From the NCBI GenBank assembly GCA_943736015.1, contig OX031060.1:950001-1014000 (forward strand): 64,000 bases of DNA, given 5' to 3'. Below the pieces are notes generated by a model that had not been told where the DNA came from, made no database searches, and worked only from the letters and a program-made list of their open reading frames with translations. Position 1 is the stretch's first letter; each line of letters starts with the position of its first letter. Both the position numbers and the translations under genes were made by a program. The stretch comes from Tridacna crocea (Eukaryota > Mollusca > Bivalvia > Cardiida > Cardiidae). Positions 292 through 62,831 of this stretch are shown in pieces.

Positions 292-520
292 TTAACGCTT
301 TCCCAAACAATCCCTGGTTTTTATGGATCTGGAATAGCAGCCTTTTGAAAACATTGTGGGAAAAGGAGAAAATGCTGATAACCAGCATTTTCTCCTTTTC
401 CCACAATGTTTTCTACCCTATCATAGACAGAAATCATCTTTTCAGCAAGAGGTGAATTGTTGTCTGCAAATGCTTACAATTTGGTCTAGTCCAAAAATTT
501 GTCGTTTGGGAAAGGGTTAA
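292..520 (+). mobile_element. TTAA foldback MITE, full length
   Basis: 229 bp including TTAA at both ends. Central hairpin with a gctgataaccagc centre. Its right TTAA (517-520) is also the left TTAA of the next element. Confidence 0.85.
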
Positions 521-967
521 CGCCCGGACGACAAAACTTTAGAATTGTCTAAATTGAAAGGAATTTTGCAGACGAGAAAATAAATGTAACTTAACCCATT
601 ACCACACAATCCCTACTTTTGACGCCCCTAAGAAAGAAGCCTTTGGAAAACATTGTGGGAAAAGGAGAAAATGCTGCTAACCAGCATTGTCTCCTTTTCC
701 CACAATGCTTTCTACCCTTCCCAGATCAAATTCCAAATTTTCAGTGAGTTCTATTTTGTTGTCTGCAAATTCTTTCAATTTGGACGAGTCTAAAATTTTG
801 TCGTTTGGTAATGAGTTAAACATTGAAATTTGCCCAGGGCAAGGAAGAAAACCTTGTGGGAAAAGAAGGAAATGCTGGTTACCACAATATTCTCCTTTTC
901 CCACATGTTTTCGAAGGCTTCCTTTCTCGGCGTAGTTAAAAGTCAAACTTGTGTAATAAAGGGTTAA
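517..967 (-). mobile_element. TTAA foldback MITE split by a second copy
   Basis: Minus-orientation copy whose left part (517-590) and right part (820-967, ending gtgtaataaagggttaa) are separated by the complete plus-orientation copy at 591-819. Joining the flanks at one TTAA leaves an ordinary element, which shows that the inner copy inserted at TTAA and duplicated it. Confidence 0.85.
591..819 (+). mobile_element. TTAA foldback MITE, full-length type copy (family description)
   Basis: Reference copy for the dominant family. Reading order: TTAA, an end like CCCATTACCACACAATCCC, a 'gaccctgagaaagaagcc' block, the hairpin arm starting acattgtgggaaaagg, a ctggtaaccag centre, the complementary arm, a 'ctaccctt..aaacaaattt' block, 'ttttgtcgtctgcaaatgct' then 'ttcaatttggaccagtct', and TGGTAAAGAGTTAA. 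The two ends form a ~14 bp inverted repeat. Full copies measure 225-230 bp including both TTAAs. No coding capacity. TTAA duplication with ends beginning CCC/CTC is typical of piggyBac-type transposition (established for that superfamily); assignment here is inference. Confidence 0.88.
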
Positions 968-1794
968 CTCTTTGCGTTTCACAGACAACAAGATGTGATG
1001 TCGTGAACAGTGTGGATCAGGATTAGACTGCACAAAATGTACTGTCTGATCTTGGATCTACATAGTTCGATTTGTCGTGAAGTATATTTGTCTGAAGAAC
1101 AGATGATATGCAATATTTTGTGTATTACCTGTAGACAAACTCAACTAAGCCTTGGAATTTTAGGCCCTTTCAAATTGGAAGCATTTACAGGTTACATGTT
1201 TACTGTTGCTTAAACGATTAGAGTTATCTTCAAAAAGTAGAAAACATTGTGGGAAAAGGATAAAATGCTGCTTATCAGTATTTTCTCCTTTGCCCACAAT
1301 ATTTTCATAAGCCCTTTTCCCAGGATTCTTCGGAAAAGGATCAAAATAAGGGATGAACAATAGACTATCATATTTAACGATCATTTTGTTACCAGTTGTT
1401 ATTATATCTATTACTGCTGCAAAACGGTTTTGTTACTTATTACTTGAACTTACTCGAATCTTGTAACAATATCAAACGCGTCTTATATCTCTGAATGAAT
1501 TACACAAAGTGATAAAATAATTATCCAAAATGGTTTATATGTGGCTTACATTGAGCAGACTACGAAAAGAGAAGGGTCCAACTAAACAAACGATAAATGG
1601 AAGAGAAGCCAAGAAATGCAAGAAGCGAACTTCCCCCACCCCCCACTCGTGTTAGTCAATGTTTGTAAGCATGTAAGCACTGTCATAGGCTAGACGTAGC
1701 TGATCCTCTCTTTTAAGGAAATTATGTATAGGTGCTCTGTGCGCTGTGCACTGACCTCCCGGGTTTTGTAACTAAAATAAAGTTGTAAACGAGG

Positions 1795-1989
1795 TTTGCG
1801 TAAAGTGTCTTCTCGGATCAGCCTGCGCAGTCCGTGCACGCTAATTCGAGACGGCACTTTCTGTTTTTATGTAATTTTCTGTTTTTCGCAAGTCTACTGA
1901 AGCACAATATCTAATGTAGTCGTAAAGTGCCGTCTCAGATCAGCCTGCGAGCACCTCGCAGGCTGATCCGACACGACACTTTACGCAAA
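1795..1989. mobile_element. Foldback element, 'gatcagcctgcg' family
   Basis: Ends are inverted repeats: tttgcgtaaagtg at the left and cactttacgcaaa at the right, each followed inward by a gatcagcctgcg / cgcaggctgatc block. A further internal copy of the arm begins near 1921, so one arm is duplicated. I associate this sequence with bivalve genomes; that link is from memory. Confidence 0.7.
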
Positions 1990-2807
1990 TGTCCGATACC
2001 CCTTTTCGCGTGTTGTAAGCCAAATGGTGTAGGAGTATAGGGATAAGGCTGTGGCAGGCTTTCAAATAATTAAAAGGGCGGGAACAAAAGATTATTGCCC
2101 CCCCACCCACCTCCCCCTTTTAGCAAATTTTAATTTCCTTCTGCACAAAATAGTTTCGTGTCGGGTGAAAATAACTCTCTCAAGTCCCTTTCCCCTTTGT
2201 ACAATAATTTCCTTCCTCTCTGCTGTAGCGTCCCGTTGTTAGGGTACTCAAAAGTTTCAGGAACGTATGGATTACGGAGGTCGATGTGTTACCGGAGTAC
2301 TTATCCAAGTTCAAACCACAAAATATTTGCAATTGCCCGGAATCTTATTTGGTAAACCAATCCAAATTTTGAAGCTTTGCTATTACCCCCTTAGACTGCT
2401 GAACGCGAACGTCTTGCGGACAGTGTAGACCAAGATGAGCCTGTGCAGAAAGTGAAGTCTGATCTTGGATCTACATTGTCCGATAAAGAGATATTTTCAA
2501 CAAAAAAAAACAGAGAAAAATGTCTGAAACAGCGGTATTTGGGGTTTTAATACCAACTTGAAATTTCCATTAAACTTATTGAAGCAGGTTACACAATAAA
2601 CGTATGATGTAGAACTAGACATGCGTTCCAAGCATAGCTATTTGTAATATTTGGTAATTGTTGTTTTCCGGTTCATGCCAGCCAACTGTCTTCAGGAATT
2701 CATTCCTTTACATCTAAAGCAGCCAAGGGCAAGAAGAATTTCATAAGAAAAGAACAAAATTGATATCACTTTAATTTCAAGACCATTTTGGCAAGAATAA
2801 TCAACAC

Positions 2808-2883
2808 CGTAACGGGCAACGTATATTCAAGATCAGACTCCACGTTCTGTGCAGTCTGATCTTGAATATACGTTGTCCGTTAC
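2808..2883. repeat. Long hairpin, 'gatcagactgca' family
   Basis: Arms of about 30 nt (gtaacgggcaacgtatattc and gaatatacgttgtccgttac, continuing into gatcagact / agtctgatc) around a short loop. Shorter or decayed relatives with gatcagactgcac..gtgcagtctgatc lie near 1010-1070, 2400-2490, 3365-3425, 24405-24455, 36415-36475 and 48055-48110. Confidence 0.7.
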
Positions 2884-3179
2884 TCTGTGATGTCTGAAAT
2901 TTTATCAACATTTTCTGCTACAGCTTATAAAGTTGTTCTGGAATAACTAAGGATTTACAAGACAATAAACGCCAACAAAATGTCAGGTTCTTGGTTATAC
3001 AGCAATGATTGTCAAAATGTGTTTGACGTTAAGTGATTATATATTACTGGCAAAGTCTTCCCTCAGAGGGCAGAATAAACCCAGCAGATATTTAAGAAAT
3101 ACAACCAAAATCATTTCAATTCCATGGCTACTTTTGTCTACAGTTTTTCAGCAAAGAGGACATTGAATGTTAAAGATCA

Positions 3180-3377
3180 GGGCCCGTATTCACCAACCAC
3201 TCTTTAGAACGTTCTTTGTCTTATTCTTCAGAATGTTCTACATTTGTAAGTAACACAACTTCTGATTGGCTAAACCATTCGGTTTAGCCAATCAGAAGTT
3301 ATGTTACTTACAAATTTGGAAAACCTTGGAGAGTAAGAATAAGAATATTCTCAAGAATGGTTGGTGAATACGGGCCC
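3180..3377. mobile_element. GGGCCC-ended foldback MITE, copy 1
   Basis: Nearly perfect palindromic element of 198 bp: gggcccgtattcaccaacca at the left, tggttggtgaatacgggccc at the right, arms continuing to a ggctaaaccattcggtttagcc centre. Two other copies lie in this window. Confidence 0.85.
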
Positions 3378-3594
3378 TGGCTGCATCTTTTGTGCAGCCT
3401 GATCTTGATCTACAATGGCCGAAAATGTAACTGCAGTTGTGAGAAGGGAGTTAAGGGTTTAAGGTTCTCCTGACGTTAACAATAATGCAATGCACTTTTG
3501 AGTCATAAGTTACTGAACCCATCGGGAAAGATGCCTTTTTTAGGAGAGAAAAAAAAAACTGCAAGAAAAGGAGAGGTTGATAGATTGTTTGATT

Positions 3595-4061: not shown

Positions 4062-4244
4062 GGTTTGTATTCACCAACCATTCTTATAAGAACATTGTTT
4101 GTCTTATTCTTCAGAATTTTGTCAGTGTGAAAGTAACAGAACTTCTGATTGGCCAAACCATTCGGTTTAGCCAATCAGAAGTTCTGTTACTTTCACAGTT
4201 AAAAAATCTTGAAGAGTAAGACAAAGAATGTTTTTAAGAATCCG
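4062..4244. mobile_element. GGGCCC-ended foldback MITE, copy 2 (diverged ends)
   Basis: Starts cggtttgtattcaccaacca and folds around the same gccaaaccattcggtttagcc centre. The outer right end is worn. It ends about 140 bp before the transgelin CH exon at 4388. Confidence 0.75.
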
Positions 4245-4988: not shown

Positions 4989-5137
4989 GTACATGTATTT
5001 ACGTGTATTACATGTAATTTAAGTGTATTGAAATTTAAAACCAATAAAATATTTGAAGACATTGATGCTGACCTCTACTGGCTTCTTTTGTAAACAAGCC
5101 AAACTATTCAAAGTAATGTCATTTGTCTTTATTTTAG

Positions 5138-5342
5138 CCTTATGAACAAGTTAATGCCAGGAAGTGTAAAGAAAATTGACAGGAAAGGTGGCGGCTTTGC
5201 CCTGATGCAAAACATTGAGAGATTTAACAAAGCTGCTGAGAAGTACGGTGTACCAGTACGAGAATTGTTTCAGACCGTTGATCTTTGGGAGAAAAAGAAT
5301 GTTCCTGCAGTGACCTTGTGTTTGTTTGCGCTGGCCCGAGAG
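5138..5342 (+). CDS. Transgelin/calponin-like protein, second CH-domain exon
   Basis: Follows a polypyrimidine tract and attttag acceptor; its first base completes the Asp codon left open by the exon ending at 4503. It encodes L-M-N-K-L-M-P-G-S-V-K-K-I and ends in TLCLFALARE before gtaagt, in phase 0. The NKL.PGSVKKI block and the closing LFALARE helix are hallmarks of transgelin-type CH domains. The ATG visible at 5142 is an internal Met, not a start. Confidence 0.92.
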
Positions 5343-5417
5343 GTAAGTGACCGTTCAGTGGCTGGTCAGCTTTATTCGAGGAGTTTGTATACATTTAAAT
5401 TCATTAGATACAAACTG

Positions 5418-5710
5418 GTTAACTCTCTACCAAACAATACAGGGCCCGTATTCAGCAACCGCTCTTAAAAAAGTTCTTGGTCTTATTCTCCAGAATTTTC
5501 TATATTTGTAAACAACACAACCTCTGATTAGCTAAATAATTTGGTTTAGCCAATCAAAAGTTGTGTTACTCACAAATCTAGAAAACCTTGGAAAATAAGA
5601 CTGAGAATATTCACAAGAATGGTTGGTGAATACGGACCTTGCTGGTTTTTACAACCCGGAGATAAAAACCTTTTGAAAACATTGTGGGAAAAGGAGAAAA
5701 TGCTGGTAAC
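5418..5710 (+). mobile_element. TTAA foldback MITE, interrupted by another foldback element
   Basis: The left end (TTAACTCTCTACCAAACAAT) stops at 5440. The rest of the left arm resumes at 5639 (tggtttttacaaccc) and runs to the hairpin centre, where the copy is cut off at about 5710. The gap is filled exactly by the GGGCCC foldback element at 5441-5638. Confidence 0.75.
5441..5638. mobile_element. GGGCCC-ended foldback MITE, copy 3
   Basis: 198 bp element with long inverted arms: gggcccgtattca at the left and tgaatacggacc at the right, folding around a ttggtttagccaatc centre. It is the same length as the copy at 3180-3377 and sits inside a TTAA element, which marks its ends clearly. Confidence 0.8.
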
Positions 5711-9875: not shown

Positions 9876-10102
9876 TTAACACATTACCACACAATCCCTA
9901 CTTTCGACGGCCTTGAGAAAGACGCCTTTTGAAAACATTGTGGGAAAAGGAGAAAATGCTGGTAACCAGCATTTTCTCCTTTTCCCACAATGTTTTCTAC
10001 CCTACACAAATCAAATTTCAAATTTTCAGTCACTTATTTTGTCATCTGCAAATGCTTTCGATTTGGGCAAACCGAAAATTTTGTTGTTTGGTAACGAGTT
10101 AC
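9876..10102 (+). mobile_element. TTAA foldback MITE, full length
   Basis: 227 bp with a perfect hairpin over roughly 60 nt (arms gaaaacattgtggg / cccacaatgttttc). The right TTAA has changed to TTAC. Confidence 0.88.
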
Positions 10103-11620: not shown

Positions 11621-11877
11621 AACAGTTCTTTTATTTGACGGAGAATACACAATAGAAGAACAAATAGCATTCAATAATTGCATTTTTTTTGCATTTTAAT
11701 AAAAAAAAGAAACTTTAATAACATAAATAATAACTATATCTGAAAAACAAAAAGCAAACAAAACAAAAGGAAAATTTAGATAAACCTAGTAACAAAAACG
11801 TAAACATATATATTATTATGTTTTTCTGTTGACAAAAGGAACACAAGTTTGTCGTATTCCACCATGATGCCAAATAC

Positions 11878-12105
11878 TTATCCCTTTACCCCATAAGGCA
11901 TTTCTATGGTATCTCTAATTGACCCCAAAAACAGCAAGGATGAAGCTGTTTCTTATGTGTATATGACACTTTTTGATAGGAAAGAAAACATTGTGACAAA
12001 AGGTGAAATCACTCGTCATGAGCAATTTCACCTATTCCTACAATGTTTTCCAAAGACTCCTACAAGCAATGTGTAGAAATGAGTATCTATGGAGTAAAAG
12101 GTTAA
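11878..12105 (+). mobile_element. TTAA foldback MITE, second subfamily (alternative hairpin)
   Basis: 228 bp. Ends fit the family (ccctttacccc... to ...agtaaaaggttaa), but the hairpin is different: arms of aggtgaaat / atttcacct around a ctcgtcatgag centre. The flanks read ataaggcatttctatggtat and gagtatctatgg. The copy at 53987-54215 is the same type with cleaner arms. Confidence 0.8.
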
Positions 12106-12334: not shown

Positions 12335-12550
12335 TTAACCCGTTACCACACATCCCTACTTTTACTTTTGACAACCCTGAGAAAGAAGCCTTTAGAAAAC
12401 ACTGCTGGTAACCAGCATTTTCTCCTTTTCCCACAGTGTTTTCTACCCTTCACAAAACAAATTTCAAATTTTCAGTCACTTGTATTTTGTCGTCTGCAAA
12501 TGCTTTTGATTTGGACACACCTAAAATTTTGTTGTTTGGTAATGAGTTAA
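12335..12550 (+). mobile_element. TTAA foldback MITE with one hairpin arm shortened
   Basis: The left arm jumps from gaaaacactg straight to ctggtaaccagc, losing the outer-arm purine tract, while the right arm is complete. Its right TTAA is shared with the next element. Confidence 0.85.
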
Positions 12551-12775
12551 CTCATTACCACACGAGATAATTTTGGACTGGTCCAAATTGAAAGCATTTG
12601 CAGACAACAAAATAAAGGTGACTATAAAATAGAAATTTGTTCTGGGAAGGGTGGAAAACACTGTGGGAAAAGGAGAAAATGCTGGTTACCAGCATTTTCT
12701 CCTTTTCCCACAGTGTTTTCAAAAGGCTTCTTTCTCAGGGGCGTCAAAAGTAGGGATTGAGTGGTAATGGGTTAA
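12547..12775 (-). mobile_element. TTAA foldback MITE, full length
   Basis: 229 bp in opposite orientation to its left neighbour, sharing TTAA 12547-12550. The hairpin arms carry CACTGTGGG / CCCACAGTG, a matched variant of the usual CATTGTGGG / CCCACAATG. Confidence 0.88.
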
Positions 12776-12920: not shown

Positions 12921-13138
12921 TTAACTCTACTGAACGACAAAATTTTGGACTAGACCAAATAGAAAACATTTGCAAAGAACTACATAAATACAGCTCAAAT
13001 GATGATTTCTTTCTTAACTGTGATGAAAAGCATTGTGGGAAAAGGAAAATATGCTGGTTACCAGGATTTTCTCCTTTTTCCCACAGTGTTTTCAAAAAGC
13101 TTCTTGTTTAAATTCAGGATTGTGTGGTGAAGAGTTAA
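12921..13138 (-). mobile_element. TTAA foldback MITE, first of a chain of three
   Basis: Minus copy; its right TTAA (13135-13138) doubles as the left end of the next copy. Confidence 0.8.
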
Positions 13139-13329
13139 TGACCTTGAGGCAGAAGGCTTTTGAAAACATTATGGGAAAGGAGAAAATGCTGGTAACCAGC
13201 ATATTCTCCTTTTCCACAATGTTTCCTAATCTTTAAGAAATATCCTGTCATCGAACCCAATTCAAATTTGTCATCTACAAGTAGTTTAAATTTGGACAAG
13301 TCTTAAATATTGTTCAGCGGTAGAGTTGA
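13135..13329 (+). mobile_element. TTAA foldback MITE, middle of a chain of three
   Basis: Plus copy lacking most of the left terminal block; the hairpin is slightly decayed (attatgggaaagg against tccttttccac). Its right end TTGA is shared with the next copy. Confidence 0.75.
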
Positions 13330-13555
13330 TCTTTTTCCACACATGGAACTTTTACACTTGCCCATATAGAAAGCCCTTGCCTACAATAAGTTATATCTGG
13401 TTGAAAAGATAAGATTTGTCTGTTAAAAGGCAGAAAACATTGTAGGAAAAGGAAAAAATGCTGGTTACCAGCATTTACTCCATTCCCCCACAATGTTTTC
13501 AAAAGGTTTCTTCCTTAGGGTTGTTAAAACTTGGGGTTGTGTGGCAAACGGTTAA
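13326..13555 (-). mobile_element. TTAA foldback MITE, last of a chain of three
   Basis: 230 bp minus copy ending ggcaaacggttaa, immediately followed by the mariner-like micro-element. Confidence 0.8.
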
Positions 13556-13682: not shown

Positions 13683-14152
13683 TCACGATGTTTTGTATGT
13701 AGGCTGCTGCAAAGTCGTATCTGGAGGTAACGAGCTCAATGGAACACCATCGCTAGTGCTATCAAACTTTGCCACCTCTTCAAGACTCATATAAGAGGCT
13801 TCTTTTCCACCTCTCTCCTTGCAGATCTTCAAATGTCGGTCTCGATGGTATTTGGTACGAAACTCTTTAAAACACTTCCCACACATGAAGTTTTTCTCAC
13901 CTGTATGGATTTTCAAATGCTTTTTCAAGGCTTGTGTTTTATAAAACACTTTAGAACAGAAAGTACATGTGAATGTATGTTCGTTCGTATGTCTGTATGT
14001 ATGTGTTCTGAGATCAGATTGACGGGCGAACAGTTTATCACAGTACGAGCATTTGTACTTTTTGTCCCCTGTATGTGTTGTAATATGGGCATCTCGATGG
14101 GCTTTTTGACGGAAGGTTTTGCCGCAAATCTCACACTGGAATTTCTTGACAC
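13683..14152 (-). CDS. PRDM4: PRDM4-like zinc-finger protein, exon 9 (fingers 4-7 and C-terminus)
   Basis: Final coding exon after a tttcag acceptor, entered in phase 1. It carries three C2H2 fingers (CEICGKTF..H..H, CSYCDKLF..H..H, CTFCSKVF..H..H) and a last finger with Cys in place of the final His (CGKCFKEF....HLKIC). That C2HC ending, with the TKYH..RHLK.C wording, is the signature of PRDM4 C-termini. The 45-residue acidic/serine tail ends at TGA 13683-13685. Fingers 4-6 are joined by TGDKKYK- and TGEKNFM-type linkers. The protein is a nuclear DNA-binding regulator; in vertebrates PRDM4 is linked to cell-cycle and neurotrophin-receptor signalling (family knowledge). Confidence 0.93.
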
Positions 14153-14182
14153 CTGAAAATGAAAATTAGTAGATGTTTTCCT

Positions 14183-14412
14183 TTAACTGTTTACCAAACA
14201 ACAAAATCTTAGACTGGCACAAATTGAAAGCATTTTGCAGATGACAAAATAAATGAGACTCAAAAATTGAAATTTGTGCTGGGAAGGGTAGAAAACATTT
14301 TGGGAAAAGGAGAAAATGCTGGTTACCAGCATTTTCTCCTTTTCCCACAATGTTTTCAGCAGGCTTCTTCCTCTGGGTCGTAAAGATCAAGTATTGTTTG
14401 GTAAAGGGTTAA
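14183..14412 (-). mobile_element. TTAA foldback MITE, full length, in PRDM4 intron 8
   Basis: 230 bp with both TTAAs intact. It begins 31 bp from the exon 9 acceptor, on the intron side. Confidence 0.88.
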
Positions 14413-14609
14413 TACCATTCTGAACATTATTTCAGCTATATCCCAGCAGTGATATATCCTCCACAAAAAAGATATTTAGGTGACCCAACTAAGCTGAGAA
14501 TTACGGTATCATCATGGTATTCTTGTCATTAAGTGCCAAAACCTGAAGGACTTTGTCCTTGACACACAGTGACCTTGACCTTTGGCATATGAACTTTATG
14601 ATCAGAAAG

Positions 14610-14835
14610 AAGCAACCAACATTAATGAGCGTTATCTATACCATGTAAAAAGACTAGCATAAACAAGAGCTGTCACTGAATGTGACTTTATAACCCCCAC
14701 CAGGGCTTTGACAGTATTTTGTACACAGACGGACACACAGACAGACACACGGACAGACGCACTGATGGACGGACAGACAGACGCGCAGACGGACACACGG
14801 ACAGACAGGCCAATTCCAGTATACCCCCGAAAACC
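14610..14835. repeat. 'aagagctgtcac' repeat with gacagacgga microsatellite
   Basis: A 'aagagctgtcactgaatgtg' block followed by about 110 bp of cacagacgga / gacagacgc units. A related gacagacggacagata stretch lies at 39385-39420. It is an interspersed repeat of a type I know from molluscs; class unresolved. Confidence 0.55.
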
Positions 14836-14927
14836 TAAGCTGCAACAAGATCTATGCAGTAGTCCGACCAATTAACATGATGCACATGTACCAACTGGTA
14901 TACGCAAAGCAAAATAAAAGAACTCAC

Positions 14928-15209
14928 CAGTATGTATATTCATGTGAGCTTTAACATTACTAGAGTCTGAAAAACATTTCCCACAGCGCTGACATTGGTA
15001 AGGCTTCATATTCATATGTGTCAACATGTGGTTGTTTAAACGACTCTGATTGTTGAACTTCTTCCCGCATCCTTCGAAAGTGCAGGTGTACTTATAATGT
15101 TGTGGATGCGCTGCCCTTAAATGATTGTTTAACAGTTTTTTGGTAGTGAAATATTTTCTACAATGTTCACACTGCTGCAGTTTGGCAACCCCTGGATCTT
15201 CTGATATAC
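14928..15209 (-). CDS. PRDM4: PRDM4-like protein, exon 8 (fingers 1-3)
   Basis: Exon between a cttgtag acceptor and a g|gtgagt donor, in phase 1 at both ends. Three fingers: CEHCRKYF...H....H, CTFEGCGKKF...H...H (long C-x4-C spacing) and CQRCGKCFSDSSNVKAHMNIH. The GMKP/MNMKP-type linker before the third finger and its FSD.SN..H wording match the corresponding vertebrate PRDM4 finger. Opening residues GISEDPGV align with the GVPEHPDV stretch that follows the PR domain in vertebrate PRDM4 (from memory). Confidence 0.92.
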
Positions 15210-15225
15210 CTACAAGTAAACCAAA

Positions 15226-15454
15226 TTAACTCTTTACCAAACGAGAAAATTTTAGGCTGGTCCAAACTCAAAGCATTTGCAGACGACAAAATAAAGGTGA
15301 CTAAAGAATAGAAATTTGTTCTGGGAAGGGTAGAAAACACTGTGGGAAAAGGAGAAAATGCTGGTTACCAGCATTTTCTCCTTTTCCCACAGTGTTTTCA
15401 AAAGGCTTCTTTCTCAGGGGCGTCAAAAATAGGGACTGTGTGGTAATGGGTTAA
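15226..15454 (-). mobile_element. TTAA foldback MITE, full length, in PRDM4 intron 7
   Basis: 229 bp; its left TTAA starts 17 bp from the exon 8 acceptor side. Hairpin arms are of the CACTGTGGG / CCCACAGTG variant. The right TTAA is shared with the next element. Confidence 0.88.
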
Positions 15455-15889
15455 TCCTTTACTAAACAATCTCAAGTTTAACTTTTTACCAAACAACACC
15501 ATTTCGGACTTGTCCAGATTGAAAGCAATTGCAGACGACAAACTGATAATCGCAAAAATGGCACAATTTTTCCTTGATTGAACAGGATGTTTTGTGGGAA
15601 AAGGAGAAAATGCTGGTTACCAGCATTTTCTCCTTTTCTCACAATGTTTTCATAGGGCATCTTCCTCAAAGTCATTAAAAGTCAGATTGTGCAGTAAAGA
15701 GTTAAACAATCCTGTGGGAAAAGGCACCTGAAAACATGGGAAAATGCCAGTTACCAGTATTTTCTCCGTTACCAACATTTTCTACCCTTCCCAAATCAAA
15801 TCCTAATTTCTGATTCACATTTATTTTGTCTTCTGCAAATGCTTTCAATCTGGACTAGTCCAAAATTTTGTCAGTTGGTAAAGAGTTAC
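15451..15889 (+). mobile_element. TTAA foldback MITE split by a nested copy
   Basis: Outer plus copy: left end 15451-15481 and remainder 15706-15889 (worn hairpin, then cttctgcaaatgctttcaat and ggtaaagagttac), separated by the minus copy 15478-15705. Confidence 0.8.
15478..15705 (-). mobile_element. TTAA foldback MITE nested in another copy
   Basis: 228 bp, TTAA at both ends, inserted in the left arm of the copy spanning 15451-15889. Confidence 0.85.
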
Positions 15890-16100
15890 TAGCAGAGGTG
15901 GCCACAAGGAAAGGTCTTACTGTACTATCCTTTGACACATTTCATACAAAGTTATGTTTAGATAGGGTAATTCTTTCCATAAATGATTCATGGAAAAAGG
16001 AGCCAGGTTAAACTGAAATCTGCTTTTAAGCCCCAACTAAAATTGCATAGTACATGTAATAAATACCGGTAATACTTGATGCGTATGCAAATATACAAAC

Positions 16101-18856: not shown

Positions 18857-18894
18857 TCCTTCATCAGGGGACACATCTTTAGATACCTTTGTAT

Positions 18895-46746: not shown

Positions 46747-47115
46747 TTAACCTTTACTAAACATTCAAATGTTTTAATGATTCTGTATAATAAGACTCGA
46801 AAACACTATTGGAAAAGTCGAAAATTCCTGGCAATAAGTATTTTCTGCCTTTCTTGCAATGGTTTCTACACTTCCAAAGGCAAATTTAATCACATCTACG
46901 TCATCAACGGCAAACCCCTGCAATTTGGTTAATCTTTACATTTTATTGTTTGATAAGAATGTAACTACCTTCTCAATCCACAAAATTTTAAACTTGGCTA
47001 AATGAAAAAAATTGCACACAACAAATTCATTGTGGCGTCAAAGATAGATTCTGTCCTAAAATGATGAAAGACATTGCTGGAAAGGGAGAAAATGCTGTTG
47101 AGTTGTTAAGATAGA
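46747..47115. mobile_element. Two decayed TTAA foldback MITEs
   Basis: Plus copy 46747-46964 with a worn hairpin; minus copy 46961-47115 cut off inside its hairpin. Confidence 0.6.
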
Positions 47116-47244: not shown

Positions 47245-47473
47245 TTAACCCCTTCCCAAACAATCCCTAGTTTTTACGACCCTGAGACAGAAGCCTTTTG
47301 AAAACATTGTAGGAAAAGGAGAAAATGCTGGTAACCAGCATTTTCTCCTTTTCCCACAATGTTTTCTATCCTGCTGGAAACAAATTTTAATCTTTGATTT
47401 CTGTTTATTTTGTTGTCTGCAGGTGCTTTCAATTTGAACCCGAATTAAATTTTGTTATATGGTAAAGAGTTAA
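47245..47473 (+). mobile_element. TTAA foldback MITE, full length
   Basis: 229 bp with both TTAAs. Confidence 0.88.
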
Positions 47474-47599
47474 ATCTTTTACACTGCATAGTAATTGAGA
47501 CAATCAATAATGTTATTACATGTAATAACTATTGTCGGTTAGTAGACAGGAGTCTAGATATTTTGCCCTTTGATTTTACTGCGCTAACTTGTATGGTAT

Positions 47600-47827
47600 T
47601 TAACTTTATACCACACAATCCCTACTTTTAACGACCCTGAGAAAGAAGCCTTTAGAAAACATTGTGGGAAAAGGAGAAAATGCTGGTAACCAGCATTTTC
47701 TCCTTTTCACACAATGTTTTCTTCCCTTCTCAAAACAAATTTCTAATTTTCAGTCACGTTTATTTTGTCGTCTGCAACTGCTTTCAATGTGGACCAGTCT
47801 ACAATTTTGTCGTTTGGTAAAGAGTTC
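47600..47827 (+). mobile_element. TTAA foldback MITE, full length
   Basis: 228 bp; right TTAA changed to TTCA; hairpin perfect apart from tcacacaatg. The dispersed repeat at 47830-47935 follows directly. Confidence 0.85.
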
Positions 47828-48161: not shown

Positions 48162-48576
48162 TAACTCTTACCACACAATCCTGTTTCAACGACTGAAGAA
48201 GAACTTGGCCTTTGCAAACATTGTTGTATTGTAGCCAGCATTTTCTCCTTTTGCCATAATGTTTACTATTTCATCGAAGGCAGATTTCATCATTTTAGCC
48301 AACATTGTGTGCAATTGCTTTCAGTTTGGACTACTGTAAAATTTTGTAATGTGTTAACCCTTTCCCAAACAATCCCTAGTTTTTACGACCTTGAGATTGA
48401 AGCCTTTTGAAAACATTGTGGGAAAAGAAGAAAATGCTGGCAACCAGCATTTTCTCCTTTTCCCACAATGTTTTCCACCCTACTGGAAACAAATTTCAAT
48501 TTTTGAGTTACATTTGTCGTCTGCAACTGCTTTCACTTTGGACCAGTCTAAAAGTTTGTCTTTTGGTAAAGGGTTA
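48162..48576 (+). mobile_element. TTAA foldback MITEs: decayed copy then full copy
   Basis: 48162-48357 lacks most of its first hairpin arm. 48354-48576 is 223 bp with both TTAAs; they share TTAA 48354-48357. Confidence 0.8.
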
Positions 48577-49004
48577 AAGAGTGACAGGAAGGTAGCTGAA
48601 TTAGTTTCATTTCATTTATCATCCTATAAGCTAACAGCCTAAAAAAGTAAAGTTGAACTAAATTGGAAAAAATATATACTGCGAAGTGCTGGTAAAAAAA
48701 CAAAACAGGAAAGCATGAATGTGGCTACTGCAATAGTACTGAAGTAATGTCAAAAATGGCAATAAAGACCATACATAAAAAAATGATTTTGTTCATAAAA
48801 ACTTTTTTCCTTATGCATGATACAATGTATGCATGTTATGTAGCTTTTGATATTTTGAAAGTTAGTGGACTCTTGGTAAATAGTTCAAATTTTGTTTGGA
48901 ATTGGAAAAGATGAGATAGATTCATTAATTTTGTGAGACTCATTAGTTTTGTGACCAGTTACCTCCAATTAACCTTTTACCCAGAATGCTGCGTTTTGAC
49001 ACCC

Positions 49005-49678: not shown

Positions 49679-49795
49679 ATCTGTATATTGTCACTAGAGA
49701 CACTTTTGTAGATAAATAAACAGTATCAAATGTTTGCAAAACAAAGTTTAGGTGCAATTGCAAACATTAGTCAAGGTTGAATGTTTTAATTCTTT

Positions 49796-50012
49796 ACCAC
49801 ACAACAAATTTCTAGACCAGTCCAAATTGGAAGCATCTGCAGACAACAAAAAATGTGACTGAAAAATCGAAATTTGATTTGGGAAGGGTAGAAAACATTG
49901 TGGGAAGAGGAGAAAATGCTGGCTACCAGCATTTTCTCCTTTTCCTACAATGTTTTCAAAAGCATCCTTTCTCAGCTTAGTTAAAAGTCGGAATTGTGTG
50001 ATAAAGGGTTAA
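49796..50012 (-). mobile_element. TTAA foldback MITE
   Basis: 217 bp, both TTAAs; arms cattgtggg / cctacaatg. Confidence 0.82.
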
Positions 50013-50183
50013 GATAGGGTACATCAGTGCTTCATACTGAAATTATATTTTTTATCTTTGCTCAAGTTACAAGATCTGCAAGATTTATGCAAGCCTGTGT
50101 CCCTTAAAAACTTGGCTATCATATCTCTGGGTCAAAATTCAGTATGTTCTATTATATATTCAGATCCTCCTTCACTGTTTCGT

Positions 50184-50412
50184 TTACTCTTTACCAAATG
50201 ACAAAATATCAGTCTCTTTCAAATTGAAAGCATTTGCAGAGGACAAATTAGATGTGATTAAGAAAATGAAATTTGTGATTAAGAGAGATAGAAAACATTG
50301 TAGGAAAAGGAGAAAATGCTGGTTACCATCATTTTCTCCTTTTCCCACCATGTTTTCAAAAGCTGTATTTCTCAGGGTCATCAAAAATAGGCATTGTTTG
50401 GAAAAGGCTTCA
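50184..50412 (-). mobile_element. TTAA foldback MITE, full length with altered ends
   Basis: 229 bp; ends TTAC and TTCA; hairpin tip gctggttaccatc. Confidence 0.8.
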
Positions 50413-50673: not shown

Positions 50674-51113
50674 TTAACCCTTTACCACATTATGATGACT
50701 TTTATCTCCCCTGAGGAAGAAGCCTTTTGAAAACATTTTGGGAAAAGGAGAAAATGCTGGTAGCCAGCATTTCCTCCCTTTCCCACAAAGTTTTCTATCC
50801 TATTAAAGCGTAATTGCACCATATGGGCAATTTGAAATTGTACTCTGGAGATGCTTTCAATATTGGATGGGTCTAAAATTTTACTGTCTAGTGAAGGATT
50901 AACCGTTTACTAAACAATCCCTGGTGTTCATGACCCTGGGATAAAAGCCTTTTGAAAACATTGTGGGAAAAGGGAAAAATGCTGGTTACCAGCATTTTCC
51001 CCTTTTCCCCCAATTTTTTCTACCCTGCCAGAAACAAGTTTCAATTTATTTTGTGGTCTGCAAGTGCTTTCAATTAGGACCAGTCTAAATTTTGTCGTCT
51101 GGTAAAAAGTTAA
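50674..51113 (+). mobile_element. Two TTAA foldback MITEs head to tail sharing one TTAA
   Basis: Plus copies 50674-50902 (229 bp) and 50899-51113 (215 bp) in the same orientation. Confidence 0.85.
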
Positions 51114-51234
51114 AGGAATTGAAACTGTTGTGAAAGTGAAAATCTTTAATATGTATTGTGCTGTTGCTTATTTTGCTGGCAGAAAAGTGAAGTTTAAAAT
51201 CAGGTAAAAAATAAACATAAGTTAGACTTTTGAC

Positions 51235-51351
51235 TACCTTCAGTTTGAAGGTGTCTGTACCGATGCTATTTTTGTGACTGGTCTCCACATTCTAAATGCG
51301 GAGACCAGTCACAAAAATAGCATCGGAGCAGACACCTTCAAACTGAAGGTA
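51235..51351. mobile_element. 116-bp foldback element with ~55-bp arms
   Basis: Ends accttcagtttgaaggtgtc and its complement. The arms then pair through ccgatgctatttttgtgact and ggtctcc to a tiny loop at ctaaa. Only about three mismatches between arms. The terminal block is itself palindromic (accttcagtttgaaggt). Confidence 0.8.
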
Positions 51352-51701: not shown

Positions 51702-51921
51702 CCAACTCTTTACCAAACGACAAATTTATAGACTAGTCCAAATTGAAAGCAGTTGCAGACGACAAAATAAATGTGACTGAAAAATCGAAATTTGATATGG
51801 GAAGGGTAGAAAACATTGTGGGAAAAGGAAAAAATAATTGTTACCAGCATTTTCTTCTTTTCCCACAATGTTTTGAAAAGGCTTCTGCCTCGGGGTCGTC
51901 AAAAGTTTGGTAAGGGGTTAA
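51702..51921 (-). mobile_element. TTAA foldback MITE
   Basis: 220 bp minus copy; hairpin tip worn (aaaataattgttaccagcat). Confidence 0.78.
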
Positions 51922-52333: not shown

Positions 52334-53332
52334 AGATACATAGGCACTGTTTCAGATCTTGTGAAAACTTTAATTGCATTTCAGAGGCCTTAATTTTATT
52401 CTCTTTGCTGATGAAACATTCCTAGAATGCTTTTCTTGATAGTATCTTAATTAATTTACTTGAAAAGAGGCCATTTTGGGTCTAAAGTAGGTCACCAGGT
52501 CAAGTCTGGTAAAATGCTTCAGATGTACTGTAGATGTCGAATTTCTATCAAATTCTCATGAAATTGTATCGGATTGATTTTCTGTAATTTACCTCAGAAA
52601 TTTGAAAAATAGGTCACCTGTAGTCATACTTTTTCCATGTAATTTAAAGTCCAATTTTTTTTAAATTTTTTGCGAAGCTTTTCAGAGCGTTGGTAATATC
52701 TCGGACAAGTTAGAGTATACATGTAGGAGAGCCAGGATAAGAAAAATAGTTACTTGATATTAAGTAAAGCCTTTTGTGCCATTCAAAAGTAATATTTTCT
52801 GCATCATTTCAATGAAAATTATTCAAATTTTCAATCATACAATCATGTATTTCAAATAAACTGAATGTTTTCTTGTTATAGATATCGGCACAGTGGCCCT
52901 CACCATTGAGCAATCTAGGCCAATGATGGCCCTTTTGTTTTGTTTGGTTTAAGTCACACAATTTTGAAATAGGATGGTTGAAAACAGTACAATTTCTAGG
53001 CCAAGAAATGTGATGTTAGGGTTTTTTGATGAATAACAAAACAAGCCAGAACAGATTGAAATGTGTTGAAGCATGACTGTCACAATTTATATAATGTGGT
53101 TTTGCATTAGTTTTGTTTTGTCATTTTGATGTTAATAGTTTTTGCCCTTCCTAATTAAACTCATTATTGTCATCTGTTAAACCTGTGGAAGTACTCAATT
53201 TTGTTTTTTCACTTTACGGATATGAAAAGGGAAATATTCAGTATACATGTATATATAATTCTGTTTTTCCCGCAATATATACTGGGCAGGTCTTTCCGTC
53301 GGTCAATCCTGCTATTGATGTTTTGAAACTTT

Positions 53333-53690
53333 GCATATTCACTTGCCAGGTACTGTCAGTACATATTCACTTGTCAGGTACCGTCGGTGCATATTCACTT
53401 GCCAGGTACCGTCGGTGCATATTCACTTGCCAGGTACTGTCGGTGCATATTCACTTGCCAGGTACTGTTGGTGCATATTCACTTGCCAGGTACTGTTGGT
53501 GCATATTCACTTGCCAGGTACTGTTGGTGCATATTCACTTGCCAGGTACTGTCGGTGCATATTCACTTGCCAGGTACTGTCGGTGCATATTCACTTGCCA
53601 GGTACTGTCGGTGCATATTCACTTGCCAGGTACTGTCGGTTCATATTCACTTGTCAGGTACTGTCGGTGCATATTCACTTGCCAGGTACA
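53333..53690. repeat. 28-bp minisatellite, ~13 units
   Basis: Unit gtgcatattcacttgcc + aggtactgtcg, 28 bp, with a few C/T changes. All three forward frames are open through it simply because no unit contains a stop; because 28 is not a multiple of 3, each frame reads the same 28-residue cycle. Not a credible gene. Confidence 0.92.
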
Positions 53691-53811
53691 GTTACTGTTA
53701 GCAGTTTTCACATGAATTATCTCCCCCTTGAACTCTGACACTATTATGTTTAATGCAGATCTTTTTCCTCAGTTAAAGTGATTGACAGGGCAATGAAGTC
53801 ACCAACCCTAG

Positions 53812-53986
53812 TTCAGCCTTTTACCACACAATCCTGACTCTTAGTGGCCCCGAAGAAAAAGCCTTGTGAAAACATCAGAAAAAAAGAAAAAGCTGGTAAC
53901 AAGCATTTTCTCCTTTTCCCACAATGTTTTCTGAAGGCTTCTTCCTCTGGGCTGTAAAAACCTGAGATTGTTTGATAAAAGATTAA
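53812..53986. mobile_element. TTAA foldback MITE, symmetric form of the other half
   Basis: The left part is the plus-type CACACAATCC end; the right part is the complement of the same end (gaaggcttcttcctctgg ... gattgtttgataaaag). It lacks the gtctgcaaatgct half entirely. It is the mirror case of 20377-20654. Confidence 0.7.
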
Positions 53987-54215
53987 TTAGCCCTTTACCC
54001 CATAAGGCATTTCTATGGTATCTCTAATTGACCCTAAATAACAGCAAGGATGAAGCTGTTTCTTGTGTGTATATGACACCTTTTGATAACATAGAAAACA
54101 TTGTGGCAAAAGGTGAAATTGCTCGTCACGAGCAATTTCACCTTTTGCCACAATGTTTTCCAAAGGCTCTTACAAGCAATGAGTAGAAACGAGTATCTAT
54201 GGAGTAAAGGGTTAA
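53987..54215 (+). mobile_element. TTAA foldback MITE, second subfamily, best copy
   Basis: 229 bp. Hairpin perfect over about 58 nt: acattgtggcaaaaggtgaa, tip attgctcgtcacgagcaat, and the complementary arm. The right end ggagtaaagggttaa pairs with the left ccctttacccc. Confidence 0.88.
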
Positions 54216-54819: not shown

Positions 54820-55053
54820 TTTACCTCTACACCAAAATTTAATGAAAAAAAAATTTACACTGGTCCAAATTGAACACATTTGCAGACAAAAATATCAAAG
54901 TGACTCAAAAATTAAGTTTGTTTTGGGTAGGGTAGAAAACATTGTGGAAAAGGAGAAAATGCTGGTTACCAGCATTTTCTCCTTTTCCACAATGTTTTCA
55001 AAGGGTTTCTCCAACAGGTTCGTGAAAACCAGGGATTGTTTGGTAAAGGGTAA
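54820..55053 (-). mobile_element. TTAA foldback MITE
   Basis: Minus copy with worn ends and an intact hairpin (acattgtggaaaaggag / ctccttttccacaatgt; both arms lack one G/C). Confidence 0.78.
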
Positions 55054-56021: not shown

Positions 56022-56301
56022 TTAACCTGTTACCTGACACAGCAAAATTATAGACCTATCCAAATTGAAAAAAACCCACTACCACACAGCAAAATTTAAT
56101 AGACCTATCCAAATTCAAAGCATTTGCAGACAACAATTTTAAAGTGGCTCAAATGGTGCATTTTAGCAATGATAGGGTAGAAAAAATTGTGGGAAAAGGA
56201 GAAATTGCCAGTTACCAGCATTTTCTCTTTTTCCCACAATTTTTTTTCAAGGCTTTTTCCTCAGGTGTGTTAAAAGTCATCATTGTGTGGTAAAGGGTTA
56301 A
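56022..56301 (-). mobile_element. TTAA foldback MITE with duplicated left end
   Basis: The minus-type left end occurs twice (agcaaaattatagacctatc near 56041 and agcaaaatttaatagaccta near 56088) before a single hairpin. Confidence 0.72.
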
Positions 56302-57277: not shown

Positions 57278-57408
57278 TTTAACATCTAAAACTCTCTCTA
57301 ATTTTACAACCCTCAGGATGAAAGCTTTATAACTATTGTTGGAAAAGCAGACATTGCTGTTAACCAGCATTTTCCCCCTTTCCAACATTTTTTTCTGTAT
57401 CAAGTTAA
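57278..57408 (+). mobile_element. TTAA foldback MITE, left part with hairpin
   Basis: Decayed plus copy with a gctgttaaccagc tip, joined at its cut end to the next copy. Confidence 0.65.
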
Positions 57409-57632
57409 CCCATTACTACCCAATCCTTACTTTTGATGACCATGAGAAAAAAAATCTTTACAAAACATTGTGGGAAAAGGAGAAAATGCTGGAAATCAGC
57501 ATTTTCTCCTATTTCCCACATTGTTTTCTACCCTTCACAAAACAAATTTCAAATTTTCAGTCATTTTTATTCTGTCTGCAAATGCTTTCGATTTGGACAA
57601 ACCTAAAATTTTGTCATCTGGTATAGAGTTAA
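57405..57632 (+). mobile_element. TTAA foldback MITE, full length
   Basis: 228 bp, both TTAAs. Confidence 0.87.
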
Positions 57633-57769
57633 ATTTAAGTCTGGCCACTTTTACTTTGTTTTCTGAACTTGCCATCAGCAATGGATAAACCTAAACTTAT
57701 GACAATGGTTTGAGTGATAATAATAAGATGAATTATGGTCTCTAGTTGTGAAAATACCATCACCCTTTT

Positions 57770-59098: not shown

Positions 59099-59328
59099 TT
59101 AACACTTTATCACACAATGCTGACTTTTAACAACCCTGAGGAAGGAGCCTTTTGAACAAAATTTGGGAAAAGGAGATTTTTGTGACCAGCATTTTCTACT
59201 TTTTCCACAATGTTTTCCACTATATAAAAGCAAAATTGTGTCATTTGAACCACACTGAAATTGTCATCTGCAACAGTTCATGCTTTAAATTTCGATGGGT
59301 CTGAAATTTGTCATGCAATAAAGGGTTA
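59099..59328 (+). mobile_element. TTAA foldback MITE, full length
   Basis: 230 bp, both TTAAs; hairpin tip lost pairing (ggagatttttgtgaccagc). Confidence 0.82.
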
Positions 59329-59857
59329 AACTGAAGAATAAATACAATGAAAATTTCCAGAAAATAGTATATACCAAAACATTGTTACACGTTAGTACAA
59401 AGTGCTTTTTCCTGGTAAAATAATTCATTCTACTATGCAGTGCATGTATTTTGACCCACACTGTCTACAAAAGAGCATTGAGTATTGCTATGCAGCCTGA
59501 TAAAGGTAAAAGTTGATATTAAAACTGTCAGCAGGTTGGGTCTATAAGATCGATAGCACTAAAGTACAACATGCAAGAAACCTGCATTTTTTATAGCTTT
59601 TTTATCGGATTTTGCAATCACAATTAATGCAGTTTGTAGATTCACATGGCACAAACATGTGACAAAGTCTACTGAAGTATTGAAAGAAGCCATTACTTCG
59701 TGAAAATTTAAAAAAACTTGAAGAGTCTTTGACACGCTATCGGTAGTTTTCTTGACCATCAAGAAGAAAACTTTTAAGTCTTTACCACACAAACCTTTTA
59801 ACATTCCTGAGAAAGAAGCCTGTAGAAAATATTGTTCCCCTATTTTAGACTTTCACT

Positions 59858-60594: not shown

Positions 60595-60841
60595 TTAACC
60601 TTTCATCAGGAAATCCAACTCTCTACAAAATGAAAAGAAATCAGACTCGTCCAAATTGAAAGCATTTTGTAAAAGACAAAATATCTGAAACCGAGAATTT
60701 GACATTTTGGAAGGGTAGAAAACATTATAGGAAAAGGAGAAAATGCTGGTTACCAGCATTTTCTCCTTTTCAGACAATGTTTTCAAAAGGCTTCTTCCAC
60801 AGGGTCAATATTGAAAGTCAGAATTGTTGGTACAAGATTAA
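60595..60841 (-). mobile_element. TTAA foldback MITE
   Basis: 247 bp minus copy with both TTAAs; arms cattataggaaaagg / ccttttcagacaatg. Confidence 0.8.
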
Positions 60842-61303
60842 CTGCTGTAAGAAAAAGACTTCTGTAAACATTAAAGAAAAAGTAGATAAAGCTGGTAGGC
60901 AGAGTTGCACCTCCAAAAGATTGTGAAAAAATGACTTTTGTTGTTATGGATGTTGGTAGTGCACTATAAATATAGGTGATGCATGCAAATGTAATTTTAA
61001 TAAATAGGTTCGCGGTCCAGTGCACACTTTGAAGTGGCTTACATAAGTCTGAGTTTTCACAGATAAAAATCGTGTTTTTTTTTAACCGCACGTCTGATTT
61101 TCACATCAATTTAGTTTTTAAGACCACCATTTATGACAATGGATGGGTTGTTTTTGTTATTTTTGTCCTTTCCTATTTTCTTTTTATTACCTTATTATTT
61201 CATTATCTTCTGAAACCAAAATACTTGCAAGTGACAGAAAATATCCCGAAAAATGGAGGGGAAATTAACTCTACCAAACTACAAAATTTTACGCTCCACC
61301 AAA

Positions 61304-61716
61304 TTAACCCATTCCCAAACAATCCCTGGTTTTTACAAACCTAAAATCAGCGATGTAGGAAGGATTTCAAGATGGGGGGGGGGCTAACTTCGAAATACTG
61401 AGATTTTTTGCGTGGTTGTTTCATTGCGCTAAGAACTGATATTTTAGTAACTATGATTTTCAAAATTATGGGGGGGGGGGGGGGAAGAAGTGAGGCCCCC
61501 CAGCCCCCCCTTGTTCCTACGGGCCTGAAAATAGAATCCTTATGAAAACATTGTGGGAAAAGTAGAAAATGCTGGTAACCAGCATTTTCTCCTTTTCCAA
61601 CAATGTTTTCTACCCTGCGGGAAACATATTTTAAATTTTGTGTTACATTAATTTTGTCGTCTGCAAATGCTTTCAGTTTGGAACAGCCTAAAATTTTGTT
61701 GTTTGGTAAAGAGTGA
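61304..61716 (+). mobile_element. TTAA foldback MITE containing a G-rich insertion
   Basis: Plus copy whose left block is interrupted after tttttacaaacctaaaat by about 175 bp with two long G runs; it resumes at cctgaaaatagaatcc with a good hairpin. Confidence 0.72.
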
Positions 61717-61867
61717 AAGGCATGTAGAGACAACCAATTGGATCTCACCCAAATTATGTGATTTGTCTGTGAAAAGGTAGAAAACATAGTAGAAGATGGA
61801 TAAAATGTTGCTCACCAGCATTTTCTTCTTCTCTCACAATGTTTTCAACAGTGTGTCTACCCAGGGT

Positions 61868-62084
61868 CTGCTGGTTTAGTGGTAAAGTGAAGATTCCTGA
61901 TCTGGAGGCATTGCATTCAAGTGTCTCTGGATTTATTGGATTTTTCATAAGAGTTTCCTTGAGCAAGATACCGCATTGCCCCAGCCAAGCATGTGTGGGA
62001 CCCTGGATGTTGATGTGAGCTTTTGCAGTGATATAAGTGAAATAATGTTGACAGTGGGCTAAAATGCCATACAAACTGTCAACT
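61868..62084 (+). mobile_element. tRNA-headed SINE
   Basis: Head gctggtttagtggtaaagtg (A-box-like), tail gaaataatgttgacagtggg. The flanks cagggtc / aagggtc may be a target duplication. Confidence 0.6.
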
Positions 62085-62261
62085 CCAAGGGTCATTAAAA
62101 CTAGGGATTTTGTGGTAAAGGAAGAACATGATTGACAGTCACTTGTATGAAATGGGGTTTTGGCAAATGAAAAAAATTGAGAGTAAATTTATTTTCTTCA
62201 ATATTTCTTCATGAATTATTGCATTCTGAAACACCTGATTCAACTTGATTATTAACCTTTT

Positions 62262-62606
62262 AACAGAAGACAAAATTTTAGCCTTTATCCAAATTAAAAG
62301 CATTTACAGACAACAATTACTGCTATAATGTGGCTCAAATGGTGCAATCTTTCTTTGATAGAGTTGAAAATGTTGTGGGAAAAGGAGAAAATGCTGGTTA
62401 CCAGCATTTTCTCCTTTTTCCACAATGTTTTCTAAAGGCTTCTTCAACAGGCATGTTAAATTTTGGCTTTATGCAGTAAAGGGTCAATGACCCTAAAAGG
62501 CAGCTTTTGAAATCTGTTAGTTTGGGAGAAAATATTAGTTATCAGCTAGATGCATGTTCTACCTTTTTAGCCACAATAGATTTTTTTGTCTGCAAATTTC
62601 TTTAAC
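62262..62606. mobile_element. Two TTAA foldback MITEs, minus then decayed plus
   Basis: Minus copy 62262-62487 with an intact hairpin, then a decayed plus copy whose end meets the next element. Confidence 0.7.
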
Positions 62607-62831
62607 TCATTACCAAATGACAAAATTTTAGGTTTGTCCAAATCAAGAGCATTAGCAGACGACAAATAAAAGTGACAAAAATTTGAAATTAGTTTTGTGA
62701 AGGGTAGAAATCATTGTGGGAAAAGGAGAAAATGCTGGTTACCAGCATTTTCTCCTTTTCCCACAATGTTTTCTAAAAGCTTTTTTTCAGTCAGGGTCTT
62801 CAAAAGTAGGGATTGTGTGGTAACAGGTTAA
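62602..62831 (-). mobile_element. TTAA foldback MITE, full length
   Basis: 230 bp, both TTAAs, hairpin perfect through cattgtggg / cccacaatg. It is the last clear copy in the window. Confidence 0.87.

Follow-up and report, generated by a model that had tools for sequence, protein, structure and literature searches.

The 64-kb stretch of the bivalve Tridacna crocea analysed here (OX031060.1, positions 950,001 to 1,014,000, in an assembly of 1.0488 Gb and 31 contigs; hereafter the window) is densely occupied by one family of short, TTAA-flanked foldback elements, a miniature inverted-repeat transposable element (MITE) whose central palindrome is better conserved than its flanks and ends. We took a census by iterated nhmmer searches with a model seeded with the copy at 47245–47475, and found 118 non-overlapping copies or fragments that make up 20,799 bp, or 32.5% of the window. 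The original prediction, made by a model from the letters alone, had recognized the family but understated its scale, at about 80 copies and a quarter of the window. Full copies number 48 (23 on the + strand, 25 on the − strand), with a median length of 229 bp; 31 of them measure 225–231 bp (range 198–240 bp), much as the predicted 225–230 bp. Both orientations had been foreseen correctly, but not occupation of every intron and gap: nhmmer gave no family match in stretches such as 1.3–3.7 kb, 5.7–9.2 kb and a long terminal repeat (LTR) element at 27.7–33.9 kb. Abutting copies often have one TTAA in common, for example at 12545–12552 and 42867–42874. The copies and parts of copies listed here include members of two subfamilies, A and B.

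292–522, +: full copy, subfamily A (nhmmer)
347–413, +: 67-nt palindrome of copy 292–522; inverted-repeat arms 347–377 and 383–413
591–820, +: full copy A (nhmmer)
9876–10101, +: full copy A, perfect palindrome at 9931–9997
11877–12105, −: full copy, subfamily B
12335–12552, +: full copy A, hairpin partly deleted
12545–12775, −: full copy A, end TTAA common with copy 12335–12552; compensated hairpin pair
12921–13138, −: full copy A inserted in another (rest of the host copy, 13135–13325), single-TTAA empty site
13324–13555, −: full copy A (nhmmer)
14182–14412, −: full copy A (nhmmer)
15225–15454, −: full copy A (nhmmer)
15477–15705, −: full copy A inserted in another (rest of the host copy, 15702–15888)
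16759–16971, −: full copy A (nhmmer)
17411–17626, +: full copy A (nhmmer)
17622–17849, −: full copy A, abutting copy 17411–17626
18628–18857, +: full copy A (nhmmer)
18895–19124, +: full copy A, perfect palindrome at 18950–19016
22175–22405, +: full copy A inserted in another
22678–22911, +: full copy, three compensated hairpin pairs
24107–24331, −: full copy A (nhmmer)
25795–26023, +: full copy A (nhmmer)
27374–27603, +: full copy A, the sole copy of 59 with a hairpin less conserved than its flanks
33983–34211, +: full copy A (nhmmer)
35842–36072, −: full copy A (nhmmer)
36757–36983, +: full copy A (nhmmer)
41087–41215, +: left part of a copy split by nested 41211–41440
41211–41440, −: full copy A nested in a + copy; one TTAA in the empty site
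41441–41537, +: right part of the copy split by 41211–41440
43479–43676, −: full copy A, hairpin partly deleted
43968–44388, +: copy interrupted at its hairpin tip by − copy 44061–44231 (flanked by TTAA and TTTA)
44810–45036, +: full copy A (nhmmer)
45751–45990, −: full copy A (nhmmer)
45985–46214, −: full copy A (nhmmer)
46304–46536, +: full copy A (nhmmer)
46530–46737, −: full copy A (nhmmer)
46750–46965, +: full copy A (nhmmer)
47245–47475, +: full copy A, search seed (nhmmer)
47600–47826, +: full copy A (nhmmer)
48354–48578, +: full copy A (nhmmer)
49785–50012, −: full copy A (nhmmer)
50182–50410, −: full copy A (nhmmer)
50674–50903, +: full copy A (nhmmer)
50899–51114, +: full copy A (nhmmer)
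51704–51921, −: full copy A (nhmmer)
53986–54215, −: full copy, subfamily B, perfect palindrome
54821–55053, −: full copy A (nhmmer)
56073–56301, −: full copy A (nhmmer)
57405–57633, +: full copy A (nhmmer)
59099–59330, +: full copy A (nhmmer)
60617–60840, −: full copy A (nhmmer)
62252–62487, −: full copy A (nhmmer)
62601–62831, −: full copy A (nhmmer)

The consensus reads TTAA, CCCTTTACCACACAATCCC..., the palindrome at columns 56–122, ...GTTTGGTAAAGAG, TTAA. Its terminal inverted repeats (TIRs), aligned by eye, are TTAACCCTTTACCACACAA and TTAACTCTTTACCAAACGA, which agree at 16 of 19 positions; the prediction was a repeat of about 14 bp. Among 59 near-full window copies an exact TTAA is found at the 5′ end of 38, the 3′ end of 37 and both ends of 26; with one mismatch allowed, the figures for the two ends rise to 48 and 52. 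The central hairpin had also been predicted, although at up to about 60 nt; it measures 67 nt, a spacerless palindrome of two 33-nt arms around one central base that is perfect in the consensus, and its 33-bp stem has a predicted folding energy of about −53 kcal/mol. The modal layout in the near-full copies is 55 nt before the hairpin (42/59), 67 nt of hairpin (40/59) and 107 nt after it (32/59).

We examined the 140 full TTAA-ended copies of the window and 20 sampled stretches for nesting, rejoining the flanks of nested copies and scoring which number of TTAAs read best. Twenty-four sit within another copy of the family. Exactly one TTAA gave the best reading of the empty site in 19 of the 24 (one tied with two TTAAs), none in three and two in two, with margins mostly of 1–8 bits. 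Clear nests in the window are those of 41211–41440, 12921–13138 and 15477–15705, and four nests were read by hand, including 44061–44231 (by hand only) at another copy's hairpin tip. Nested copies in the window occupy either the tip of an older copy's hairpin or a TTAA inside it, close to column 29. Because the empty sites of nests read best with a single TTAA in most cases, these are transposed elements and not satellite units. Across the genome we sampled 25 ten-kilobase stretches on 13 contigs (250 kb), at round coordinates picked before their letters were seen. The family covers on average 22.2% of them (bootstrap 17.0–27.1%; 0 to 47.5% per stretch), at 12.6 copies per 10 kb, of which 5.0 are full; the model found no match in the reversed, uncomplemented letters of the same 250 kb. 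Extrapolated from this sample, the genome would hold about 1.33 million copies, 0.52 million of them full, in 232 Mb. We conclude that the evidence supports a dispersed, TTAA-targeting foldback MITE, as originally predicted; of the two findings named beforehand as contrary to that view, a tandem satellite is contradicted by the data and empty sites without a single TTAA are confined to the minority just given.

The best-conserved part of the element is the hairpin, whose arms change together, a feature that the original prediction had missed. Window copies match the consensus with a mean identity of 0.926 over the hairpin and 0.784 over the flanks; in 58 of the 59, the hairpin has the higher value. 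For the 112 near-full copies of 20 stretches elsewhere in the genome (L001–L020), the corresponding values are 0.905 and 0.774, with 0.817 for the TIRs, and the hairpin exceeds the flanks in 111. When window copies were compared in pairs with CpG columns removed, hairpin divergence stayed at 0.10–0.12 while that of the flanks rose from 0.13 to 0.33 and that of the TIRs from 0.12 to 0.29. CpG decay of the flanks was considered as a cause and rejected, the pattern being the same after removal of these columns. Ascertainment bias was also rejected: the choice of near-full copies rested on where the model match began and ended and on the score of the entire element, the hairpin score not being a criterion, and the outcome repeats outside the window.

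The two arms carry matched changes more often than shuffled arms do. In the window, 34 hairpin cells are changed on both sides and 26 of these are still complementary, compared with a mean of 5.8 and a maximum of 15 in 1,000 shuffles in which whole right arms were dealt among copies. Outside the window we counted 61 matched changes (shuffle mean 16.5, maximum 33), and in the 165 copies that remain without subfamily B, 64 (mean 19.9, maximum 35). Matched changes are thus 3 to 4.5 times commoner than in shuffled arms, an excess that is inflated because shuffling ignores relatedness and recounts inherited pairs. With B included, 33 kinds of matched change fall at 22 of the 33 pairs. Nineteen of these kinds are transversions and 14 transitions, and since flank changes have a similar bias (54% transversions), a stepwise route through G–U pairs is not indicated. 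The 171 copies also carry 671 single-arm changes, whose mismatches show no G–T excess (188 GT versus 195 AC).

Matched and single-arm changes differ in age. Where a copy has a relative at another locus that differs by less than 10% in its flanks, the two share 33 of 37 matched changes, compared with 4 of 56 single-arm changes. Hence most matched changes were passed down from source copies, and most of those in a single arm date from after insertion. In these closest pairs (less than 10%) the hairpin differs almost as much (0.055) as the flanks (0.071), and in ten mutual nearest pairs the counts are 30/637 and 90/1502 (p = 0.26). On a tree built from the flanks of 154 copies, which favours long internal flank branches and so leans towards our reading, summed internal branches are 0.64 for the hairpin, 3.94 for the flanks and 2.76 for the TIRs; on a tree of 53 window copies built from all columns, they are 0.27 for the hairpin and 2.00 for the flanks. 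From the sharing, the near-equal differences of the closest pairs and the internal branches, we conclude that constraint acts mainly in lineages that go on moving. Two other sources of the sharing were rejected. Local duplicates do not account for it, as limiting relatives to other loci left the result unchanged; nor does subfamily B drive it, as leaving B out gave fewer events (11/15 matched and 2/36 single-arm changes shared at less than 10%) in the same direction.

Subfamily B comprises seven copies, two in the window (11877–12105 and 53986–54215) and five in the sample. The flanks of the two window copies score next to nothing against the A flank models (0.2 and 1.7 bits; 0.8 and −0.1 bits), whereas their hairpins score 59 and 41 bits. 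Copy 53986–54215 matches A at 58 of 67 hairpin positions, at 12 of 34 inner 5′ flank positions and at 33 of 88 inner 3′ flank positions; this flank identity of 35–38% compares with shuffle means of 25% (5′, p = 0.12) and 28% (3′, p = 0.03). B copies keep the 55–67–107 layout (106 in one copy), and A and B agree at 14 of 16 positions at the start of the TIR. Their consensus hairpins differ at ten positions, of which eight form four matched pairs, one is the central base and one leaves a G–T pair.

TTAA target-site duplication, a trait of the piggyBac superfamily, is borne out by the nested copies. piggyBac TIRs are defined as 12–19 bp long and starting with CC[C/T]T (PMC2872659, in the text available). 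The A consensus has CCCTTTACCA... at its 5′ tip and CTCTTTACCA at its 3′ tip, one end departing from this motif, and B has CCCTTTAC at both ends (by eye). Among the 25 listed of the 27 Pfam families that 77 open reading frames (ORFs) of the window match, none is a DNA transposase. In the genome, PF13843 (DDE_Tnp_1_7) has at least 118 matches, counts for large families being lower bounds, and 26 of these span nearly the whole model (345 or more of its 349 positions) and are stop-free. Several matches on separate contigs have identical scores, which suggests that piggyBac elements were recently active. We checked the ends at 16 of the 118 matches (11 loci together with their flanks, and five more by their upstream part). 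Five have both ends and TTAA, at 2.6–2.9 kb, three more a 5′ end only, and the other eight no clear end in the stretch examined. The eight loci with ends display four TIR types, CCCATTTATGCCT, CCCTTTATATAC, CCCTTTCAGYGC and CCCTWGTCATGC, the complete elements (L028, L031–L034) including all four in one genome. They have the TTAA|CCC tip in common with the MITE, and two of the four types CCCTTT, but the remainder differs, and matches to the MITE TIR (up to three mismatches) in these loci are nearby family copies. The transposase with the MITE's own ends, which the original prediction proposed to look for, was thus not among the eight loci whose ends were seen, although stop-free piggyBac transposases with TTAA|CCC ends are present in the genome. 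Kolobok and Sola3 elements also target TTAA, and the CCCT tip favours piggyBac over them. Given the TTAA, the CCCTTT end and the stop-free transposases in the genome, piggyBac-type mobilization is plausible.

We think it probable that the hairpin is kept, at the DNA level, by selection that favours source copies whose palindrome is intact. A non-autonomous, TTAA-inserting MITE would move by cut-and-paste, most likely with a piggyBac-type transposase acting in trans, and its 67-nt palindrome would be a cis-acting DNA element of source copies. Copies with an intact palindrome would keep spreading, which would hold the palindrome constant or let it change in both arms together, even as the flanks and the TIRs themselves diverge; once landed, a copy would decay under little or no constraint. 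The palindrome might draw the ends of a very short element together by extrusion, or it might offer a paired binding site to a dimeric transposase domain. A binding role is possible because in piggyBac and piggyBat the two C-terminal domains of a transposase dimer bind palindromes at the transposon ends (PMC11707139, in the text available). Selection as the cause, the transposase superfamily and the role of the palindrome are all inferred.

Several observations weigh against this reading, besides the inflated shuffle excess and the bias of the flank-built tree. Hairpin divergence has no plateau in the genome sample, where it climbs from 0.06 to 0.25 across flank bins; it goes from 0.07 to 0.16 over the window's flank range (0.13–0.33) and reaches 0.25 beyond, so the hairpin evolves slowly but is not frozen. 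Terminal branches are also shorter for the hairpin, at 13.6 compared with 23.1 for flanks and 23.5 for TIRs on the flank-built tree and 3.65 versus 8.57 for flanks on the all-column tree, so that inserted copies may still undergo some constraint or conversion, or these branches may contain source history that the sample missed. Looser relatives (less than 20% flank divergence) share 37 of 56 matched and 7 of 234 single-arm changes. Distinct kinds of matched change, 28 in the 20-stretch sample and 33 in all 171 copies, are raw counts without a shuffle control. In six of the 59 near-full window copies, over 10 of the 67 hairpin columns are missing, no autonomous element with the MITE's TIRs was seen among the eight ends at 16 of 118 loci, and the few single-arm changes that relatives share lean towards G–T (6 GT, 1 AC, 4 other; non-independent).

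Without selection, the palindrome could instead be homogenized if its arms, or different copies, exchanged sequence by template switching or gene conversion, with the flanks simply left uncorrected. Template switching is a documented way of matching arms (PMC8794818, in the text available) and arm copying would permit the 19 transversions among 33 matched kinds; indeed, it may create the matched changes that selection then retains. However, undirected correction should not alter the substitution rate, and hairpin change on internal branches is about sixfold below that of flanks on the flank-built tree and seven- to eightfold on the all-column tree. Conversion between copies would erase the difference between A and B, whereas the seven B copies keep their own, largely matched variant, and single-arm changes stand uncorrected in their hundreds. 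We therefore regard homogenization alone as unlikely. It is distinctly improbable, in our judgement, that the hairpin is kept for its RNA, as a small-RNA precursor or an escape from silencing. Small RNAs derived from MITEs are known, the stem is stable, and the G–T lean of shared single-arm changes is a weak hint of RNA pairing, but single-arm mismatches as a whole have no excess of G–T over A–C, matched kinds no excess of transitions, and the window no Rfam match at the gathering threshold. The exact hairpin core was absent from viral contigs.

Two further alternatives concern what the unit is. The near-zero scores of B flanks beside a well-scoring hairpin would fit a separate palindromic module captured independently by different TTAA elements with unrelated flanks. 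The common spacing and TIR start of A and B speak against this, as does the inner 3′ flank, which is weakly similar in register, and we consider independent capture improbable. To a satellite or duplicated block we give virtually no credence. Many copies do abut, overlapping by a common TTAA, but such pairs would be expected because element ends provide many TTAA targets; the even split of orientations, irregular spacing, spread over many contigs and nests all contradict a satellite. A head-to-tail array in a single orientation is ruled out by the same mixed orientation, spacing and number of contigs. A bolder reading can be put forward tentatively: the palindrome may be a portable amplification module which, set between any piggyBac-like ends at a fixed spacing, makes a very short element highly mobile. 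It would have brought two or more subfamilies, taken together, to roughly a million copies and a share of about one-fifth of the genome, and this paired DNA structure would evolve more slowly than the ends to which a transposase would bind.

The window holds other features. An LTR retrotransposon lies at 27704–33930 on the − strand, with 544-bp LTRs at 27704–28247 and 33387–33930 that are 99.8% identical, which suggests a very recent insertion. It has a SCAN-domain match in its gag region and an integrase ahead of the reverse transcriptase, the order known from Gmr1-like Ty3 elements. A second, unrelated foldback family (3178–3379, 4087–4236, 5440–5644) has long inverted repeats with GGGCCCGTATTCACCAACCA and one match in a sampled stretch (L020). 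The inverted repeat at 51235–51351 has 57-nt arms (95%), its only other match in the window and 20 stretches being partial (39521–39563), and minisatellites with periods of 28 bp and about 46 bp occupy 53248–53779 and 34191–35027, respectively. C2H2 zinc-finger and PR-domain (PRDM2_PR) exons span 13683–16341 on the − strand, a calponin-homology exon lies at 5094–5468 (+), and a 459-residue open frame at 39645–41030 (−) has one database homologue (P0001; 69% identity). The 77 ORFs also gave one catalase-domain and one calponin-repeat match.

Searches of open-licence PMC papers for TTAA or piggyBac MITEs whose centre is conserved, palindromic or co-varying, or for MITE families this abundant, turned up one close precedent, the CMITE group of Acropora. 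CMITEs are TTAA MITEs of about 100 bp, mostly with CCCTTT-type TIRs, present in an estimated 1,600 copies in A. millepora, and the conservation of their internal region above the TIRs led the authors to propose a role in transposition (PMC2872659; this and the papers below as far as their available text goes). The family described here is similarly short, TTAA-flanked and clustered, with a CCCTTT end and an interior better kept than the TIRs; CMITEs also include an insertion into another element and a family whose TIR is that of a piggyBac element (PMC2872659). The present family differs in its length of 229 bp and, by extrapolation, in having almost three orders of magnitude more copies (PMC2872659). 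The printed 60-bp internal consensus of CMITEs is by eye a different sequence and folds weakly (−11 kcal/mol) without a long palindrome, in contrast to the perfect 67-nt palindrome here, and co-varying arms are not reported for it, unlike the inherited matched changes found here (PMC2872659). piggyBac and piggyBat share the TTAA duplication and CCCT-type tip, but their palindromes, of about 14–19 bp, lie at the transposon ends, not mid-element (PMC11707139). The Pokey MITEs mPok1 and mPok2 of Daphnia are likewise piggyBac MITEs at TTAA sites, with imperfect TIRs of 16 or 12 bp, but they are about 760 bp long, have tens of copies or fewer and no hairpin mentioned (PMC4912750). MITEs are abundant in bivalves, and no such family is described in the accessible account (PMC10294476). 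Four TIR and hairpin strings matched only a human gastric cancer paper, in the text available. Relative to CMITEs, the novelty lies in a conserved region that forms a long, perfect palindrome whose matched changes are mostly inherited, and in a far higher extrapolated copy number.

If the 25 sampled stretches are typical, one MITE family at about a fifth of a 1-Gb genome would be, to our knowledge, exceptional. Human Alu, with about one million copies and a tenth of the genome, is also non-autonomous and similar in copy number, but differs as an RNA-mediated short interspersed nuclear element. Long spacerless palindromes are usually unstable, which makes the persistence of this one in so many copies notable. 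The finding bears on the long-standing question of what causes the huge copy numbers of some MITEs. Source lineages pass on matched substitutions, and copies that have landed are largely free of constraint; evolution thus seems to single out the perfect palindrome as what spreading copies need, which suggests that it helps the element to multiply.

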